From positions 274,197-338,196 of the forward strand of contig PYIZ01000034.1 in the NCBI GenBank assembly GCA_003635265.1: DNA of 64,000 nucleotides, given 5' to 3'. This stretch comes from Candidatus Poribacteria bacterium. Its GTDB lineage: Bacteria > Poribacteria > WGA-4E > PCPOR2b. Position numbers and translations under genes: made by a program. The notes under the pieces were generated by a model, which did not search any database, was not told the DNA's origin, and saw only the letters and a program-made list of their open reading frames with translations. Shown in pieces: positions 42,121 through 50,268 of the stretch (position 1 is its first letter; each line of letters starts with the position of its first letter).

Positions 42121-42360
42121 TTACTGAACTACATCTCCTTCGATCGGCTCAACTTGCACCTTCACGTTCGTGAGATGCTCAACAACCCGTTCAAGCTCGT
42201 CAGGCTCACCTCTAATCTCCAAGATGACCCACCCACGGTCAGCCGTAACGTCGGCACGCCGAATGCTCGTGATCACATTGTACTGTTGACCGATGTTGTG
42301 GATGATGGGCTCAGTGATTAGATCCGGCGGGAAGGTCAAACGAAGTCTTAAAGATGCCAT
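42121..42360 (-). CDS. NIL domain protein
   Basis: LRLRLTFPPDLITEPIIHNIGQQYNVITSIRRADVTADRGWVILEIRGEPDELERVVEHL. Confidence 0.83.
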   Translation of the reverse strand: MASLRLRLTFPPDLITEPIIHNIGQQYNVITSIRRADVTADRGWVILEIRGEPDELERVVEHLTNVKVQVEPIEGDVVQ

Positions 42361-42393
42361 ATTCACCGCTCCTTTCTAAATTAACAAATCCTA

Positions 42394-42879
42394 TTACGCA
42401 TCACGCTTCGCGTGTATCGGCACCTCTACAAAATCTGTATCATCCTCATTCCAAGCGAAAGCCTTTGTGGTTTTGACCTCCCGGTCGTAGACGGAAACCA
42501 CAACATAAGCTGCACCGGGATACACCGGTTCGTCCCAAGCAGTTGCATCCGCTTTATCTTTCTCCGAAAAATAGGCATCGTGATTTGGGTGCGAATGATA
42601 AAATGCCTTGATCGGTCGATCTTTGGTTTCGGATTCTTTGTGCACGCGGATTAAGTCATTTGGGTCTATTAGATATGCGGTGCGTGCATTGCGGGGATAC
42701 GTATCCGGATCTTCGGCGTGACGTTCATTTTGTATATTCCGGCATTCCCGGACGAATTCTTGGGTTTCGTCGCTCAAGATGATGCCACAGCACTCATCGG
42801 GAAATTCGACCTTAGCGTGCGCGTAGATTTGATCCAGCGTTTCGCTTTGTAATTCTAATACTTCAGTCTCTCTCATCAT
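42394..42879 (-). CDS. JAMM/MPN+ metalloprotease
   Basis: AHAKVEFPDECCGIILSD...IKAFYHSHPNHDAYFSEKDKADA (HxHP...S..D). Probable start at the ATGATG at 42879/42876, inside the carrier gene. Confidence 0.87.
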   Translation of the reverse strand: MMRETEVLELQSETLDQIYAHAKVEFPDECCGIILSDETQEFVRECRNIQNERHAEDPDTYPRNARTAYLIDPNDLIRVHKESETKDRPIKAFYHSHPNHDAYFSEKDKADATAWDEPVYPGAAYVVVSVYDREVKTTKAFAWNEDDTDFVEVPIHAKRDA

Positions 42880-43159
42880 CTGATGAACCGCCTGCGATTG
42901 CAGGGATGACTGAGATTTCGTCGCCATCCTTAACTGCCGTTGCATTGCCATCTAAAAAGCGAATATCTTCGTCGTTGAGGTAGATATTAACAAAACGGCG
43001 AATATTACCGGATTCATCGCAGATACGCTCTTTGATTCCCGGATAGTTTGCCTCAAGGTTTTCGATGAGGGCTTCAATAGTATCTCCCTCTGCTTCAACT
43101 TCCGGTTGATTTTGTGTGAGTCTTCTGAGAGGGGTTGGAATACGTACGGTAACAGCCAT
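42863..43159 (-). CDS. ThiS/MoaD-family sulfur-carrier protein (CysO-like) with C-terminal extension
   Basis: MAVTVRIPTPLRRLTQNQPEVEAEGDTIEALIENLEANYPGI...VKDGDEISVIPAIAGGSSDDERD*. Confidence 0.87.
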   Translation of the reverse strand: MAVTVRIPTPLRRLTQNQPEVEAEGDTIEALIENLEANYPGIKERICDESGNIRRFVNIYLNDEDIRFLDGNATAVKDGDEISVIPAIAGGSSDDERD

Positions 43160-43274
43160 TGCAAAACTCCCTTCTGTGTCAGGTTAAATAAAACGAAACC
43201 AAAAATTCTTCGGTCTTAATTGTAACAGGTTCTATATTTGCGAGGTGAAACTTACATACCTACCGTTTTAGGTT

Positions 43275-44039
43275 CTAGATTGAGTAGTGAATCCCACATT
43301 CTTTCTTATTATCTTCATTGGCTGACGGTGCGTTTTGCCATCGCCACCGTCCTGCTCTTTTCGGTTCACCGGGCAAGATCGGCGTTGTGCAGATGATGCA
43401 GCCGAGCGATTCATAGTACTGCCCGTATTTCTGCGGCTCCATCAGCGGATTCATAGGGATGTCGTGTTTGTGAATGTACTCCCAAATCTGCGCTTCGGGC
43501 CAATCCGCTAGCGGGTTGACTTTCAGTATAGGACGACCGTTGTGCTCGATGATTTCTGCTTTGGGGGTGCTTTGTCGATTACTGGATTGATCTCTTCGAA
43601 GCCCGGAAAACCAGACATCTAGCGTATTCAGCAATCGTTGCATCGGCTGCACTTTCCTGATATTACAGCAATACTCCTGTTTTTGTTTGCTGTCGAAGAA
43701 CAGGAACTCTCCATGATTTGTGACCATTCGATTTACTGCTTCGAGATCTGGGGTGATCCTCTCAATACTAATGTTGTAATGCGTTTCGACATGCTCGAAG
43801 AATTCATAGGTTTCAGGAAACAGACGCAGCGTGTCGATTGTACAGGCTCTGAATGGCAGCTTATTTTCGTAAGCCATGTGGAGCAGGATCATTCCGGACA
43901 ATTGTCCGCTCGTAACAATCGCAGCACGCTCCTTAAAACGCTTTATAAGGTTGAATAGGATCTCCTGCGGCTCTTCGAGCAGACGAATTTCGTAGCAAAG
44001 CTCTTCATTTATCAGATCTTGATTTGTTAGTTCATTCAA
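43275..44039 (-). CDS. cysH: Assimilatory APS/PAPS reductase, APS type
   Basis: CCNIRKVQPMQRLL plus GCIICTTP (Fe-S CC...CxxC) and C-terminal KKECGIHY. Confidence 0.9.
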   Translation of the reverse strand: MNELTNQDLINEELCYEIRLLEEPQEILFNLIKRFKERAAIVTSGQLSGMILLHMAYENKLPFRACTIDTLRLFPETYEFFEHVETHYNISIERITPDLEAVNRMVTNHGEFLFFDSKQKQEYCCNIRKVQPMQRLLNTLDVWFSGLRRDQSSNRQSTPKAEIIEHNGRPILKVNPLADWPEAQIWEYIHKHDIPMNPLMEPQKYGQYYESLGCIICTTPILPGEPKRAGRWRWQNAPSANEDNKKECGIHYSI

Positions 44040-44138
44040 GGGATACCCAATCCTTCCTGTTTACGTGGCACATGACCATTGAGGGATGAGTTAATTGATG
44101 AGTCGAAGCACTTTTGACCTTTCAAGTTTATTTTTATT

Positions 44139-45089
44139 TTACTCAAAACCGGCTTCCGCGCCGATTTCTGATTCAAAATACTGGGCGAGACTAAAATAAC
44201 GGTCTCCTGTATCCGGCAAAATTGTGACAACAGTTTGATCCTTGCCAAGCCCTCGTGCCACTTCTAATGCTGCATGGACATTTGCCCCTGACGACATCCC
44301 AACGAGTAAACCCTCAGCTTTTGAAATCCGCCGCATCATCTGATAAGCCTCTCCGTCAGAGACAGTAATCACCCGATCGATCACATTAACGTTTAACACA
44401 TCTGGAATTCTGCCTGCCCCAATACCATCAATACGGGTTGGACCCGGCTGACCGCCGGACAACACTGGAGAGATGCTCGGTTCCACTGCAACCACTTGAG
44501 TCTTCGGTCGATGGGTTTTGAGAACTTCCCCAACACCTGTTAGGGTTCCCCCGGTCCCCACGCCGGCGACAAAAAAATCAATCTCACGGTCAATGTCGTC
44601 CAGAATCTCACGCGCTGTTGTTTGTCGGTGAATTTCAGGATTCACCGGATTTTCAAACTGGTTGGGCATAAAGTTGTGTGGATTCCGTGAGATAATCTCC
44701 TCAGCCTCCCAGATTGCCCCACCCATCCCAGCGTCTTCGGGTGTTAGTATAATCTCTGCACCAAAAGAGGCAAGCAGGGTATATTTTTCCCGGCTGACGT
44801 TCTCTGGCATGGTCAAAGTAACGCGGTATCCTTTTGCGATGGCAACAATCGAAAGCCCAATTCCTGTATTGCCAGCAGTTGGTTCAACAATAGTGCAGCC
44901 CGGCTTGAGCAATCCTCGTTCTTCGGCATCGGCTATCATGGCATAGCCAATCCGATCTTTGATACTGCCGCCGGGATTATACGATTCCAACTTTGCTAAG
45001 ATTGTTGCGTCGTCTGGACCGGGTAAGTAGTTCAGATGAACAAGTGGGGTATTGCCGATGAGGCCAATGAGGTTTTCAGCAATCTTCAT
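44139..45089 (-). CDS. cysK: Cysteine synthase (O-acetyl/phosphoserine sulfhydrylase family)
   Basis: LIGNTPLVHLNYLPGPDDATILAKLESYNPGGSIKDRIGYAMI; EPTAGNTGIGLSIVA; GTGGTLTGVGEVLK. Confidence 0.94.
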   Translation of the reverse strand: MKIAENLIGLIGNTPLVHLNYLPGPDDATILAKLESYNPGGSIKDRIGYAMIADAEERGLLKPGCTIVEPTAGNTGIGLSIVAIAKGYRVTLTMPENVSREKYTLLASFGAEIILTPEDAGMGGAIWEAEEIISRNPHNFMPNQFENPVNPEIHRQTTAREILDDIDREIDFFVAGVGTGGTLTGVGEVLKTHRPKTQVVAVEPSISPVLSGGQPGPTRIDGIGAGRIPDVLNVNVIDRVITVSDGEAYQMMRRISKAEGLLVGMSSGANVHAALEVARGLGKDQTVVTILPDTGDRYFSLAQYFESEIGAEAGFE

Positions 45090-45255: not shown

Positions 45256-46866
45256 TCAAAGATCCTCTTCGGACGCTTTTCCTTCCTCTTTCGACTTTGC
45301 AGCGTAGGAGTCGCGGATCCAACGCTCAAGCATGACATCCGGGTTGTCCACCACCGCTTTAGTAAAGGTGAACACAAACTGTCCCGTATTTTGTTTGATA
45401 AGGTTCAGACCGTGTTGGTAACTCTGCAATAGCTCATCACAAATCTCTTTTGGCGCTCGACCTTGGTTAATCGCCTTCTGGCATAAGAGTTCTGTCGCCT
45501 CATCGTCAAACTGGATTTGCATCTGATGTTCGATCTGGAAATCCTCTTCGTACCGGCGAACCCGCTCACGCATCACAATTTGGCGGTTGTAGTCGGCATC
45601 CTCCAGAATCCGCTGCAGTTCACCTACCGGATTCTCAACGACCGCTTCGGTTACAACGAACTCTCGGATGCTAGAGGACGGTAGTTCAAACTTATATTCG
45701 CGCAGCGTTTTTTCGCAAACTGTCATCAACGCACGCGCTCCTGTTTCTTGGGCGTATGCCTGTTCAGCGATTTGATGGAGCCCAGCATCCGAAAACACTA
45801 CCTCAATCCCATACGCCCCGAACGCCCGTTCATACTGACGGACAATCGATCCCTCGGAATGTTTTAGGATATGGTAGAGATCAGCCGCGGAAAGGTTTTG
45901 ACATATAACGTGGACAGGAAGTCGCCCGATTAATTCTGGCTCAAATCCAAACTCGATGAAATCCTGTGGTGTAACAAATTGAAAGGGATCTTCTAACTCC
46001 GTTTGACTTTTTACTGTCGCGTTAAAGCCAATATTGCTCTGATTCATGCGTTTGTTGACAATCTCTTTCAACCCATTGAATGCTCCACTAATAATGAACA
46101 GAATATGGCGCGTGTTGATGATGCGCTTTTCAACCTTGCCTTTCTGTTGGAACTCCATCATGGCTTGCATCTGAGAAGCTGCATCGTAACCAGCCCGGAG
46201 ATCGACCTCTGTCTCCTCCATCAGCTTGAGGAGGCCAATCTGCACCCCTCGTCCACTGACATCACGACCGATGATGTTCGGTGGCGTTGCAATTTTGTCC
46301 ACTTCGTCGAGGTAAATGATACCGTATTGTGCAAGTTCAATATCGTCGTCTGCCTGTGTGACTAGGTCTCGGATCATGTCATCAACATTTGCACCGACGT
46401 AACCGGTTTCGCTAAACCGGGTCGCATCCGCTTTGACAAACGGCACACCGATCAACTTGGCAATGTGGCGAATTAGGTAGGTTTTTCCAACGCCTGTCGG
46501 TCCGAGCATGACAATATTCTGTTTCGAGTAATCGGTGTCAGCAACTTTCGGATTTTCGTGGACTTCACGCACATGATTGTAGTGATCGCACACGGCGATT
46601 GCCAATGCTTTTTTTGCATCATCCTGTTTGATGACATAACGGTCGAGATATTGTTTGACTTCCTTCGGTTTGAGGTCAAATTTCAGATCGAACGTCTTTT
46701 TTTCAGGCTCGGAGGTACTTGTATCGTCAGTTGCAGTTGTATCTGGCCTTGCCTGTGACATTGTAAAGTTGACAGTACCCCCGTATTTCCGTTTAACGAA
46801 ATCCTCAAACTCTTTCTGAATTTCCTCAATGGTCGGTATTTTTTTGTTCAACCTTTGGTGGGACAT
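45256..46866 (-). CDS. ClpX-like AAA+ unfoldase lacking the zinc-binding domain
   Basis: GPTGVGKTYLIRHIA, GYVGANVDDMIRDL, IIYLDEVDKIA, NIGFNATVKSQTELEDP; no N-terminal C4 zinc finger. Confidence 0.87.
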   Translation of the reverse strand: MSHQRLNKKIPTIEEIQKEFEDFVKRKYGGTVNFTMSQARPDTTATDDTSTSEPEKKTFDLKFDLKPKEVKQYLDRYVIKQDDAKKALAIAVCDHYNHVREVHENPKVADTDYSKQNIVMLGPTGVGKTYLIRHIAKLIGVPFVKADATRFSETGYVGANVDDMIRDLVTQADDDIELAQYGIIYLDEVDKIATPPNIIGRDVSGRGVQIGLLKLMEETEVDLRAGYDAASQMQAMMEFQQKGKVEKRIINTRHILFIISGAFNGLKEIVNKRMNQSNIGFNATVKSQTELEDPFQFVTPQDFIEFGFEPELIGRLPVHVICQNLSAADLYHILKHSEGSIVRQYERAFGAYGIEVVFSDAGLHQIAEQAYAQETGARALMTVCEKTLREYKFELPSSSIREFVVTEAVVENPVGELQRILEDADYNRQIVMRERVRRYEEDFQIEHQMQIQFDDEATELLCQKAINQGRAPKEICDELLQSYQHGLNLIKQNTGQFVFTFTKAVVDNPDVMLERWIRDSYAAKSKEEGKASEEDL

Positions 46867-46925: not shown

Positions 46926-48473
46926 TCATTGAACATTGACATAAAGAAACGGCGGCATCGTCAAAGCGACAACATCATCTTCGCCGGAAATCTCCTTCGC
47001 GACTCCCAGTGCGTCCTCTAAATTTTTCGCCCAATCCACCCCTAACCTCTTCGCAACGCGGTCATCTTTGGGACCAACCAAAATGACCCTGGACAGATAT
47101 TTCAGTGCATAGGTCGCCCAATACCAGACGGTGAAGGGATGAAATCCGTGATACGCGAACTTGTTGCGATAGCAATCTATTAAATGAGGGTCATGGGCGT
47201 ATTGCTCTTGAAACTGATTTTGCATTTCAAAAGGCTCGGTGGTTTCGGCGAGGACTTCATCAAAGAACTTCTTGTAAGCGACGTGGTATTCTTCGTGGAA
47301 GACTTCAAAGGTTGGATTCAAGATAATCACGACACCACCCTCTTTGATCAGCGGTTTGTTATAAAACCAGTTGAAAACATATCCCAATATGTCGCTGACA
47401 ACCAGAACGGGATTAATTCTAGCACCGATAGCATACGGGCTCATATCGGGCAACCCAAAGACCATAGTGCTGAACTGTTTCGGCACATCTATCATCAACT
47501 GATTTTTCATGGCTTCGAGGGTTTTGGGATGAACGCCATCAATGGTGCCGGCATTGATCTCAATCGGCTCATAATCGGTTCGGATGCCTTTGAAGATTTT
47601 GTACCGTAAAGCCTCCGGCAGCAGGGACAGTGCAGGTGGTGTCAATGTTTTTAACATTTTTTCAAAGCCATTGCATTGCGCGTTTGGCTTACCCAACTGT
47701 CGAAAACCTGTGGGATAAATCTGGTTATTCATGGCAGCTTCGATAACCATGATTTTACTATGATCCTGAATAACTCGGCTCATCCGCTCGATGCAATCGT
47801 GCATGTTTGACCCCCCAGGTTGCATAACATGCGGACTCTCCGCAGTCATGTGTGGGGAGTGATGTGGGGCGATTGAATTATACGTCCCCATTCCCACAGC
47901 GACCGACTTGTGCCCACCGTTGAGGGGAATTTGGATGGTGTCAACATAAATCACGAGATCACTTTCCACGACAGCACGTTCGACCTCAACGATTTCGTCT
48001 TGCCCCGTCTTGCCTAAATCAACGATATTATCCCGATCTTCCGCATCAAAGTTTCTCAACTGATATGGATAAAACTCGTTCATAATTTTGCGACCTAACA
48101 TATATGCCAATTCATGTGTCTTCATTTTGCGATGAAGTCCGCCAGCACAAATTAACTGTATATTATTCTTCACAACTCCGTAGGAGTCGAGCAAAGGCAG
48201 CAATGTTTCGAGCATAATCTGGCGCATATCAGGCTTTTTTGTCATCGGAAAGGGCTGACAGTTATTATCGAAAGCGATCAGGACCTTACTGTTTCCGTTG
48301 ACAAGTTCCTTCAGCGGAGGCATCCCTAGCGGGTTTTCGACAGCCTTTGTGAGCTGCGCTGGAATTTCGGCGCGGCTCACCCCCGGTTTTGCCGGTTGTG
48401 GATAGTAGATTTCCGAGTTATCGGGTAATTTTGCGTTAATCAGGTGATTGCCAGAGTAGGTCAAATATTTCAT
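46926..48473 (-). CDS. LarA-like (DUF2088, lactate racemase family) protein
   Basis: KVLIAFDNNCQPFP...NIQLICAGGLHRKMKTHELAYMLG...GGHKSVAVGMGTYNSIAPHHSP. Confidence 0.75.
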   Translation of the reverse strand: MKYLTYSGNHLINAKLPDNSEIYYPQPAKPGVSRAEIPAQLTKAVENPLGMPPLKELVNGNSKVLIAFDNNCQPFPMTKKPDMRQIMLETLLPLLDSYGVVKNNIQLICAGGLHRKMKTHELAYMLGRKIMNEFYPYQLRNFDAEDRDNIVDLGKTGQDEIVEVERAVVESDLVIYVDTIQIPLNGGHKSVAVGMGTYNSIAPHHSPHMTAESPHVMQPGGSNMHDCIERMSRVIQDHSKIMVIEAAMNNQIYPTGFRQLGKPNAQCNGFEKMLKTLTPPALSLLPEALRYKIFKGIRTDYEPIEINAGTIDGVHPKTLEAMKNQLMIDVPKQFSTMVFGLPDMSPYAIGARINPVLVVSDILGYVFNWFYNKPLIKEGGVVIILNPTFEVFHEEYHVAYKKFFDEVLAETTEPFEMQNQFQEQYAHDPHLIDCYRNKFAYHGFHPFTVWYWATYALKYLSRVILVGPKDDRVAKRLGVDWAKNLEDALGVAKEISGEDDVVALTMPPFLYVNVQ

Positions 48474-48570
48474 GGCCAGTTTTCCTTTGTGTGCTGTGAC
48501 TATTTAATTTTTGATGGATGTATATTTTTTCTCAGTTTGGGGTTGACTTTGGCAAAATTATATAGTATTA

Positions 48571-48608
48571 TATCGTATACAATAGAATTATATCCGTTAT
48601 ACGACATA
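48571..48608. promoter_or_regulatory. Putative operator in the larA-like/marR intergenic region
   Basis: AT-rich imperfect inverted repeat TATCGTATAC ... GTTATACGACATA just upstream of the MarR-type gene. Confidence 0.35.
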
Positions 48609-48639
48609 ATTCTAAAAATCCGAAAGAGATATAAAGAAA

Positions 48640-49506
48640 ATGTCTAAGTACGCCGAAAATACGATGCTGATTATGCGCGTGATGCGACATGCGCAAGCTG
48701 CGGTGAAATCACGTTTTGTGCAGCAGGTTGTACCGAAGAAACTCACGATCGTGCAGTTTAACGCTTTATTGCACCTCCATTGGTATGGGGGTGAATCCGG
48801 TATGACCATCAGCGAACTGGGAGAACATCTTGGACTCGCTCACAGCACCGCCTCTGGTCTTGTAGACCGCCTAGAGCGCGATGGATGGACTGTTCGTCGC
48901 AAATGCGATACAGATCGTCGACAGAATCGCATCCAATTGACGGAAAAGTCACAGCAGCTTTTTCAGGACAGAACAGATAGCGCGACTGATTTCTGGCACC
49001 AAACAATTGGACAACTGACCCCTGAAGAACAGGATGATCTAATCAAAAGTTTAACGCGCTTGAAACAAGTGATGGACAAACCTGTTTGGCCAAGTTATGA
49101 TCAACTTCACCCTCGCGATCCGGGGCATGTGAAAGAACGTCTCGAAGCTGAATTAGACGAATTGGCACATGCAAAGTTGACTTCAATGGGTACGCGGTTT
49201 ATCTTGGCAGAGATGGCGGAACAGCAAAATCAACATGAACTCGCAGCTTACCTAAAGCAGGTGGCTTCAGAGGAGATTCGCCACGCTAATCAAATCTTTG
49301 AACTGCTCGGACATGAACAAGGTCTCAAGGCAGCGCTGTCTGATCTTATTCGCCAAGATCGGGTCGTGCTTGAAGAATTATTAGATCTTGTGGATACCGC
49401 CCAGACTGTGAATCACAAAGAGAGTTTAGAACTGTTGCAGCGGATAGTTCAAGATAATAAGAGATACAAACGTTGGTTTTCTAATATGTTCAAACAGATA
49501 GATTAA
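48640..49506 (+). CDS. MarR-family regulator fused to a rubrerythrin/ferritin-like domain
   Basis: wHTH GMTISELGEHLGLAHSTASGLVDRLERDGWTVRRKCDTDRRQNRIQLTEKS; C-terminal FILAEMAEQQNQHELAAYLKQVASEEIRHANQIFELLG. Confidence 0.82.
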   Translation: MSKYAENTMLIMRVMRHAQAAVKSRFVQQVVPKKLTIVQFNALLHLHWYGGESGMTISELGEHLGLAHSTASGLVDRLERDGWTVRRKCDTDRRQNRIQLTEKSQQLFQDRTDSATDFWHQTIGQLTPEEQDDLIKSLTRLKQVMDKPVWPSYDQLHPRDPGHVKERLEAELDELAHAKLTSMGTRFILAEMAEQQNQHELAAYLKQVASEEIRHANQIFELLGHEQGLKAALSDLIRQDRVVLEELLDLVDTAQTVNHKESLELLQRIVQDNKRYKRWFSNMFKQID

Positions 49507-49641: not shown

Positions 49642-50268
49642 GTGAAAGACAAAATGCAAGAAGAACATTACGACAAAATATTACCACGATGTGTACAAGC
49701 ATTTCCTGATGACGCGAAGCTGATTGAGCAGTTTCAACAGGGAGATAAATCGGTTTTCGATGAATTGGTGGTCCGCTATCATGACCGGACCTACCGGCTC
49801 GCGCAACGTTTTGTCCCGAATACCGAAGATGCCCTCGATATCACTCAAGATGCTTTTATCAGAGCCTATCAGGGACTCCCAGACTTCAAGAGAAAGTCTC
49901 AGTTTTATAGCTGGCTTTATCGCATCACTGTCAATCTTTGCATCGATTTCTTGCGTAAGAACGCACGGCGCGAAACGGTGAATTATGCGTTGGAATCTGA
50001 TGACCTCCCGATGATGAATATCGCAGATATTAATCTGAAACCTCCAACGCAAGCAGTTGAGGACAAAGAGCTATTGGTCTATCTCCGGCGGGCAATCATG
50101 CAACTAGCTCCCAAGCAGCGTGAGATTTTCATCCTTCGCCACTGGGAAGGCTTGTCGCTCAAAGAGATCGCCAATACATTGGGACGCTCAAGCGGTACTG
50201 TGAAAGCACATCTCTTCCACGCACACCGTAACTTGAGAAAGCTGCTTCGCCACTATCTTCAGGCGTAA
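49642..50268 (+). CDS. RNA polymerase sigma-70 family (ECF-type) sigma factor
   Basis: FDELVVRYHDRTYRLAQRFVPNTEDALDITQDAFIRAYQGL; REIFILRHWEGLSLKEIANTLGRSSGTVKAHLFHAHRNLRKLL. Confidence 0.95.
   Translation: MKDKMQEEHYDKILPRCVQAFPDDAKLIEQFQQGDKSVFDELVVRYHDRTYRLAQRFVPNTEDALDITQDAFIRAYQGLPDFKRKSQFYSWLYRITVNLCIDFLRKNARRETVNYALESDDLPMMNIADINLKPPTQAVEDKELLVYLRRAIMQLAPKQREIFILRHWEGLSLKEIANTLGRSSGTVKAHLFHAHRNLRKLLRHYLQA

Follow-up and report, generated by a model that had tools for sequence, protein, structure and literature searches.

MarR autorepressors such as MepR, MexR, and ST1710 are characterized by a winged helix and by a dimer that binds a palindromic operator, and activation by MarR proteins is also possible. 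Rv0737, a MarR regulator of Mycobacterium, binds the sigL-rslA promoter and is a precedent for the control of an ECF sigma operon by a MarR protein (PMC13002591). Sulerythrin, symerythrin, and ferriperoxin, together with the stand-alone poribacterial rubrerythrin L139, are built of four helices with alignable ligand helices, and in rubrerythrin-like proteins a short loop between helices B and C is associated with domain-swapped dimers (PMC3317640). In the R2 protein of class Ie ribonucleotide reductase, three ligand glutamates are substituted, one of them by lysine, and the site is metal-free (PMC11846895).

The window analyzed in this study, a 64,000-nucleotide stretch of contig PYIZ01000034.1 from a Candidatus Poribacteria bacterium, encodes a MarR protein fused to a ferritin-like domain; no description of such a fusion was found in the open-access literature searched. 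As in the MarR autorepressors, a MarR winged helix is present, and the fusion gene has a conserved palindrome at its own promoter, whereas approximately 140 extra residues form the predicted ferritin-like domain, and the presumed downstream target is an ECF sigma factor rather than a transporter or a peroxidase. The proposed role is similar to that of Rv0737, although the target operon of the latter encodes an anti-sigma factor and is a different two-gene unit, and no ferritin-like fusion is described in that report (PMC13002591). The ferritin-like domain shares the four helices and the alignable ligand helices of sulerythrin, symerythrin, ferriperoxin, and L139, and its B-C loop is short, like those of the domain-swapped members; in contrast to these single-domain proteins, four of its six diiron ligands are replaced and it is joined to a DNA-binding domain. 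Class Ie R2 is likewise ferritin-like with a Glu-to-Lys ligand change, but it is an enzyme and functionally unrelated, and it suggests by analogy only that changes in the glutamate ligands, one of them to lysine, can leave a ferritin-like site without metal. We consider that the fusion protein is probably a dedicated autorepressor of its own repressor-ECF sigma operon, in which the ferritin-like domain would be a largely metal-free dimerization or allosteric module.

Architecture, descent, and occurrence of the fusion protein

48640-49506, + strand: MarR/ferritin-like fusion gene, 288 amino acids (open reading frame list, Pfam, AlphaFold2)
48640-49080, + strand: MarR winged-helix domain, residues 1-147 (Pfam MarR_2 and MarR above cut-off, Foldseek)
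49081-49119, + strand: highly conserved linker P-x-WPSY-x-QLHP, residues 148-160
49120-49503, + strand: ferritin-like four-helix domain, residues 161-288 (homology, AlphaFold2 helices, L139 alignment)

The open reading frame is intact, starts with ATG, and matches its earlier description. The N-terminal winged helix of the MarR type, which had been assigned from the letters of the sequence in a first-pass annotation, was confirmed by two Pfam profiles that exceed their cut-offs (MarR_2, PF12802, 43.4 bits, cut-off 27; MarR, PF01047, 42.3 bits, cut-off 24.6), and the top 50 PDB matches of the protein model in Foldseek all belong to the MarR family. The linker has a mean pairwise identity of 94%, with Pro148, Trp150, Pro151, His157, and Pro158 invariant. 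In the AlphaFold2 model, the C-terminal domain consists of helices at residues 161-195, 199-223, 229-256, and 260-287 (mean pLDDT = 83) with a helix B-C loop of approximately 5 residues, and the arrangement of the MarR domain relative to the ferritin-like domain is of low interdomain confidence (pTM = 0.39).

The first-pass annotation had also compared the C-terminal half with rubrerythrin helices, quoting the stretch FILAEMAEQQNQHELAAYLKQVASEEIRHANQIFELLG, which corresponds to residues 187 to 224. This half scores below the Pfam cut-offs for Ferritin (20.4 against 24.5 bits; E = 5e-4) and Rubrerythrin (14.0 against 22.8 bits), values that are suggestive of kinship. L034, an ortholog from the same phylum, exceeds the Rubrerythrin cut-off (37.1 bits), and its C-terminal domain used as a query matched the window domain (E = 7.7e-13) as well as L139 (E = 4.6e-12), which itself scores 56.2 bits in Pfam. 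Because L034 links the window domain to the Rubrerythrin profile and to L139, the homology is established, and with the four predicted helices the resemblance goes beyond chance; by sequence, the C-terminal domain is of rubrerythrin-like diiron protein ancestry. The structure model of L034 is of low confidence (mean pLDDT = 69). The fold searches were silent on this half, since the PDB matches shown were those to MarR proteins and the viral library gave no significant match; the ferritin-like fold therefore rests on sequence and predicted helices. Other than the fusion protein, the window genome contains no Rubrerythrin-family match. In another poribacterial family (L139:994-1866), a Fur-family regulator gene is located directly 5' of the stand-alone rubrerythrin gene, an arrangement that resembles a PerR-rubrerythrin operon.

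Of the 85 Poribacteria genomes, 64 carry the fusion, with one match per genome. When two peptide patterns were run against 84,980 species genomes, all the relatives picked up were in Poribacteria; the patterns are strict and bear on close relatives only, so that distant fusions could escape them. A plasmid search gave weak partial matches only, which are annotated as MarR proteins. Poribacteria are sponge-associated and, to our knowledge, form a phylum without isolates; the window genome is an assembly of 5.3 Mb in 53 contigs, and the Candidatus Poribacteria assemblies nearest to it are all metagenome-assembled genomes.

Promoter, predicted operator, and proposed mechanism

48543-48571, + strand: sigma70-type promoter, TTGACT-N17-TATTAT
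48563-48614: predicted operator, inverted repeat of TCGTATACaa (48573-48582) and TATACGA (48598-48604)
49642-50268, + strand: ECF sigma factor gene, 208 amino acids, the conserved downstream partner (Pfam Sigma70_r2 and Sigma70_r4_2, adjacency)

The predicted operator overlaps the -10 element and extends past it, with arms of 17 nucleotides that are 88% complementary. Relatives of family f3 nearly all have the promoter TTGACA-17-TATAAT. In the genus of the window, the TCGTATACGA palindrome is imperfect, and TCGTATACaa is paired with a second half-site. Directly after the sigma70 promoter, TCGTATACGA is exact in 26 of 48 upstream regions and has at most one mismatch in 43 of 48, compared with 0.05% and 1.3%, respectively, in mononucleotide shuffles; neighboring families share ancestry and this conservation is not fully independent, yet it persists at only 38% protein identity in L035, whose site is a perfect 22-bp palindrome, AATATTTCGTATACGAAATATT. 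A conserved palindrome, a candidate site for a MarR dimer, is present at the promoter of the fusion gene itself.

A wider TCGTATACGA regulon was considered and rejected on the copies inspected. The exact core occurs in 1 to 6 copies per genome, which is close to the reversed-pattern control. Among 18 loci inspected, 3 are the promoter of the fusion gene (L165, L169, and L178), and the other 15 are within open reading frames, which points to autoregulation of one operon; these counts come from an exact 10-mer search with a subset inspected, and a regulon with weaker sites could escape it.

In the mechanism that we propose, a repressor dimer would sit on TCGTATACGA, immediately past the -10 box in the strong sigma70 promoter of its own gene, and keep the two-gene operon, in which the repressor gene precedes the ECF sigma gene and is presumably co-transcribed with it, switched off. 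Some signal would release the repressor from the operator, whereupon the ECF sigma factor, which has no adjacent anti-sigma gene, could accumulate and turn its regulon on. We infer DNA binding, repression, dimerization, and the allosteric role from the sequence features described here. A concrete candidate operator and promoter are now at hand for Poribacteria, and if the mechanism is right, it represents a candidate route by which an ECF sigma factor is controlled without an adjacent anti-sigma gene.

The former metal-ligand positions

49174-49176, + strand: Lys179, replacing the helix A ligand Glu (Lys in 46 of 48 sequences, Glu only in L034 and L036)
49273-49284, + strand: helix B ExxH, Glu212 to His215, intact ligand pair (47 of 48 each)
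49357-49359, + strand: Asp240 at the helix C ligand position (Asp in 45 of 48, Glu in L034 and L036)
49456-49467, + strand: helix D Asn273 to Tyr276, replacing Glu and His (Ser or Asn in 45 of 48, Tyr in 44 of 48)

The ligand columns were read from 48 sequences, 45 of which constitute the main clade (without L034, L035, and L036). In the alignment with L139, the six canonical ligand positions of the window protein are occupied by Lys179, Glu212, His215, Asp240, Asn273, and Tyr276, so that four of the six residues by which rubrerythrins and erythrins are recognized (E, ExxH, E, ExxH) are replaced. The ExxH motif pointed out in the first-pass annotation is present once, at Glu212 to His215, and the second one, located on helix D in true rubrerythrins, is missing. 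The ligand count that it had proposed as a check gives an incomplete set in the sequence, in which only Glu212 and His215 are intact, and its suggestion that iron or peroxide is sensed through a diiron-type domain finds no support in the window protein, where Glu is changed to Lys179, Glu to Asp240, and the Glu..His pair to Asn273..Tyr276. In the main clade, Lys179, Glu212, and Asp240 are found in 45 of 45 sequences and His215 and Tyr276 in 44 of 45, while position 273 is Ser or Asn. The full E/ExxH/E/ExxH set is kept among the 48 sequences by L034 and L036 only, which are also the only two with the Glu..His pair on helix D. L035 shares Lys179 with the main clade, but its residues at 212, 240, and 273 are Leu, Arg, and Val, respectively.

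These columns led us to reject the possibility that the diiron site of the window protein is complete. That a diiron center of the ferritin-like domain senses iron, O2, or peroxide and alters DNA binding by the MarR domain is therefore hardly credible for this protein, even though its ancestry is rubrerythrin-like and the helix B ExxH is intact: besides the four replaced ligands, with Glu changed to Lys in 45 of 45 and His to Tyr in 44 of 45 main-clade sequences, the domain is under both the Ferritin and the Rubrerythrin cut-offs. The idea would fit L034 and L036, in which the set of two histidines and four carboxylates is complete. It is rather improbable that Glu212, His215, and Asp240, perhaps with Tyr276, form a residual mononuclear site whose occupancy or oxidation by Fe, Mn, or Zn is the signal. 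The nearly fixed state of these four residues, which come from three helices and lie where the metal used to be, is consistent with such a site; however, Lys179 at the same place would compete with a cation, and L035 has Leu212 and Arg240 despite the common sigma partner and operator, from which it follows that the site is dispensable for the conserved role.

The domain of the window protein is thus likely to be largely metal-free. In the proposed autorepressor, the former diiron site would be replaced by a fixed polar core of Lys179, Glu212, His215, Asp240, Ser or Asn273, and Tyr276, in which the amine of Lys179 plausibly takes the role of the metal charge. Rather than storing iron or acting as a peroxidase, the domain probably serves as a dimerization or allosteric module; to judge from its short B-C loop, it most likely stabilizes the dimer, and it would also pass on the signal. 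A different reading of the same residues, that a diiron domain captured by a MarR protein became a metal-free core of Lys and Tyr that senses an oxidant or a small molecule and has direct control of an ECF sigma factor without an anti-sigma factor, seems to us unlikely.

Sensing through cysteines is well documented for MarR-family proteins, as in OhrR and in the copper oxidation of E. coli MarR, and Cys89 in the DNA-binding wing is the sole cysteine of the window protein and is kept in 44 of 45 main-clade sequences. We nevertheless regard thiol or copper sensing by Cys89, with a purely structural ferritin-like domain, as quite improbable, given that the residue is Ser in L008 and absent from L034, L035, and L036, although the operator and the sigma partner are common to L035 and the window. 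The reactive cysteine of OhrR-type regulators is in the N-terminal helix region, away from the position of Cys89, and the window protein has none there.

The ferritin-like domain has a dN/dS of 0.03-0.09, which indicates purifying selection, and it is therefore no decaying remnant. In the tree of the fusion proteins, which has long branches and an assumed root, a fully supported split sets L034 and L036 apart from the rest, and L035 falls with the main clade. L034 and L036 are 35-38% identical to the window protein and have the same MarR plus ferritin-like architecture; since all six of their ligands are retained, loss of the iron site probably took place within the fusion family. The sequences are most simply read as a single early Glu-to-Lys change, after which the site was further eroded or reshaped. 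If this is right, an enzyme-to-regulator transition is recorded inside one bacterial phylum, with relatives that still have the diiron ligands alongside a large clade that lost them and was tied to an ECF sigma factor.

The ECF sigma partner and the gene neighborhood

Neither the sigma partner nor the conserved operator had been noted in the first-pass annotation. In 61 of the 64 carriers, the ECF sigma gene is located 48-273 bp downstream of the fusion gene and in the same orientation; the other three are the genomes of L034 and L036 and one in which the locus is interrupted by a contig end. This sigma factor is present in none of the fusion-less Poribacteria genomes, where the best paralogs are approximately 43-52% identical, and the sigma paralogs of family f2 (approximately 50% identity) have no adjoining fusion gene. 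The outer neighbors of the pair vary among families f1, f3, and f8 with no other conserved gene, and the pair is therefore kept beyond general gene order. Downstream of the sigma gene, FtsY is encoded on the opposite strand at most f3 loci; in the window, gnd lies 764 bp away, and no + strand open reading frame of at least 60 amino acids was found between them. In genome G007, the ECF sigma gene has an additional close copy (L181:2133-2804; 66% identical) with no fusion gene beside it.

No anti-sigma gene adjoining the ECF sigma gene was found at the inspected loci. The one-to-one co-inheritance of fusion and sigma in a unit without a further conserved gene would suit a fusion protein that is itself the anti-sigma factor, its ferritin-like domain holding the ECF sigma factor directly and its MarR domain adding autoregulation. 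This is very unlikely, as Pfam gave no resemblance to known anti-sigma domains and the regulator precedes the sigma factor, which is an unusual order for sigma/anti-sigma operons.

L034 and L036 differ from the fusion of the window not only in their six ligands but also in the absence of TCGTATACGA upstream of their genes and in what follows, an ABC exporter gene and a DUF1854 gene in place of the sigma gene (L034:4988-7785 and L036:3396-6162, both - strand; assigned by Pfam in L034, with the same clusters in L036). An ABC-transporter neighbor common to several families was discarded, because cluster c2 had merged the ABC-F proteins of f3 with the ABC exporters of f5.

Upstream of the fusion gene, a LarA-like protein is encoded divergently (46926-48473, - strand; LarAH14/15/16 profile, 516 bits, cut-off 740), and a likely sulfur-carrier cysteine-synthesis cluster occupies 42124-45089 on the - strand (42124-44039 and 44139-45089):

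42124-42366, - strand: NIL-domain protein
42394-42951, - strand: JAB-domain protein
42866-43159, - strand: ThiS-family protein
43275-44039, - strand: PAPS/APS reductase
44139-45089, - strand: cysteine synthase

LarA and the cysteine operon were rejected as functional partners, being upstream of the fusion gene only in the genus of the window. Between them, at 45256-46866 on the - strand, is a gene for a ClpX-like ATPase of 536 amino acids that scores just under the ClpX cut-offs.
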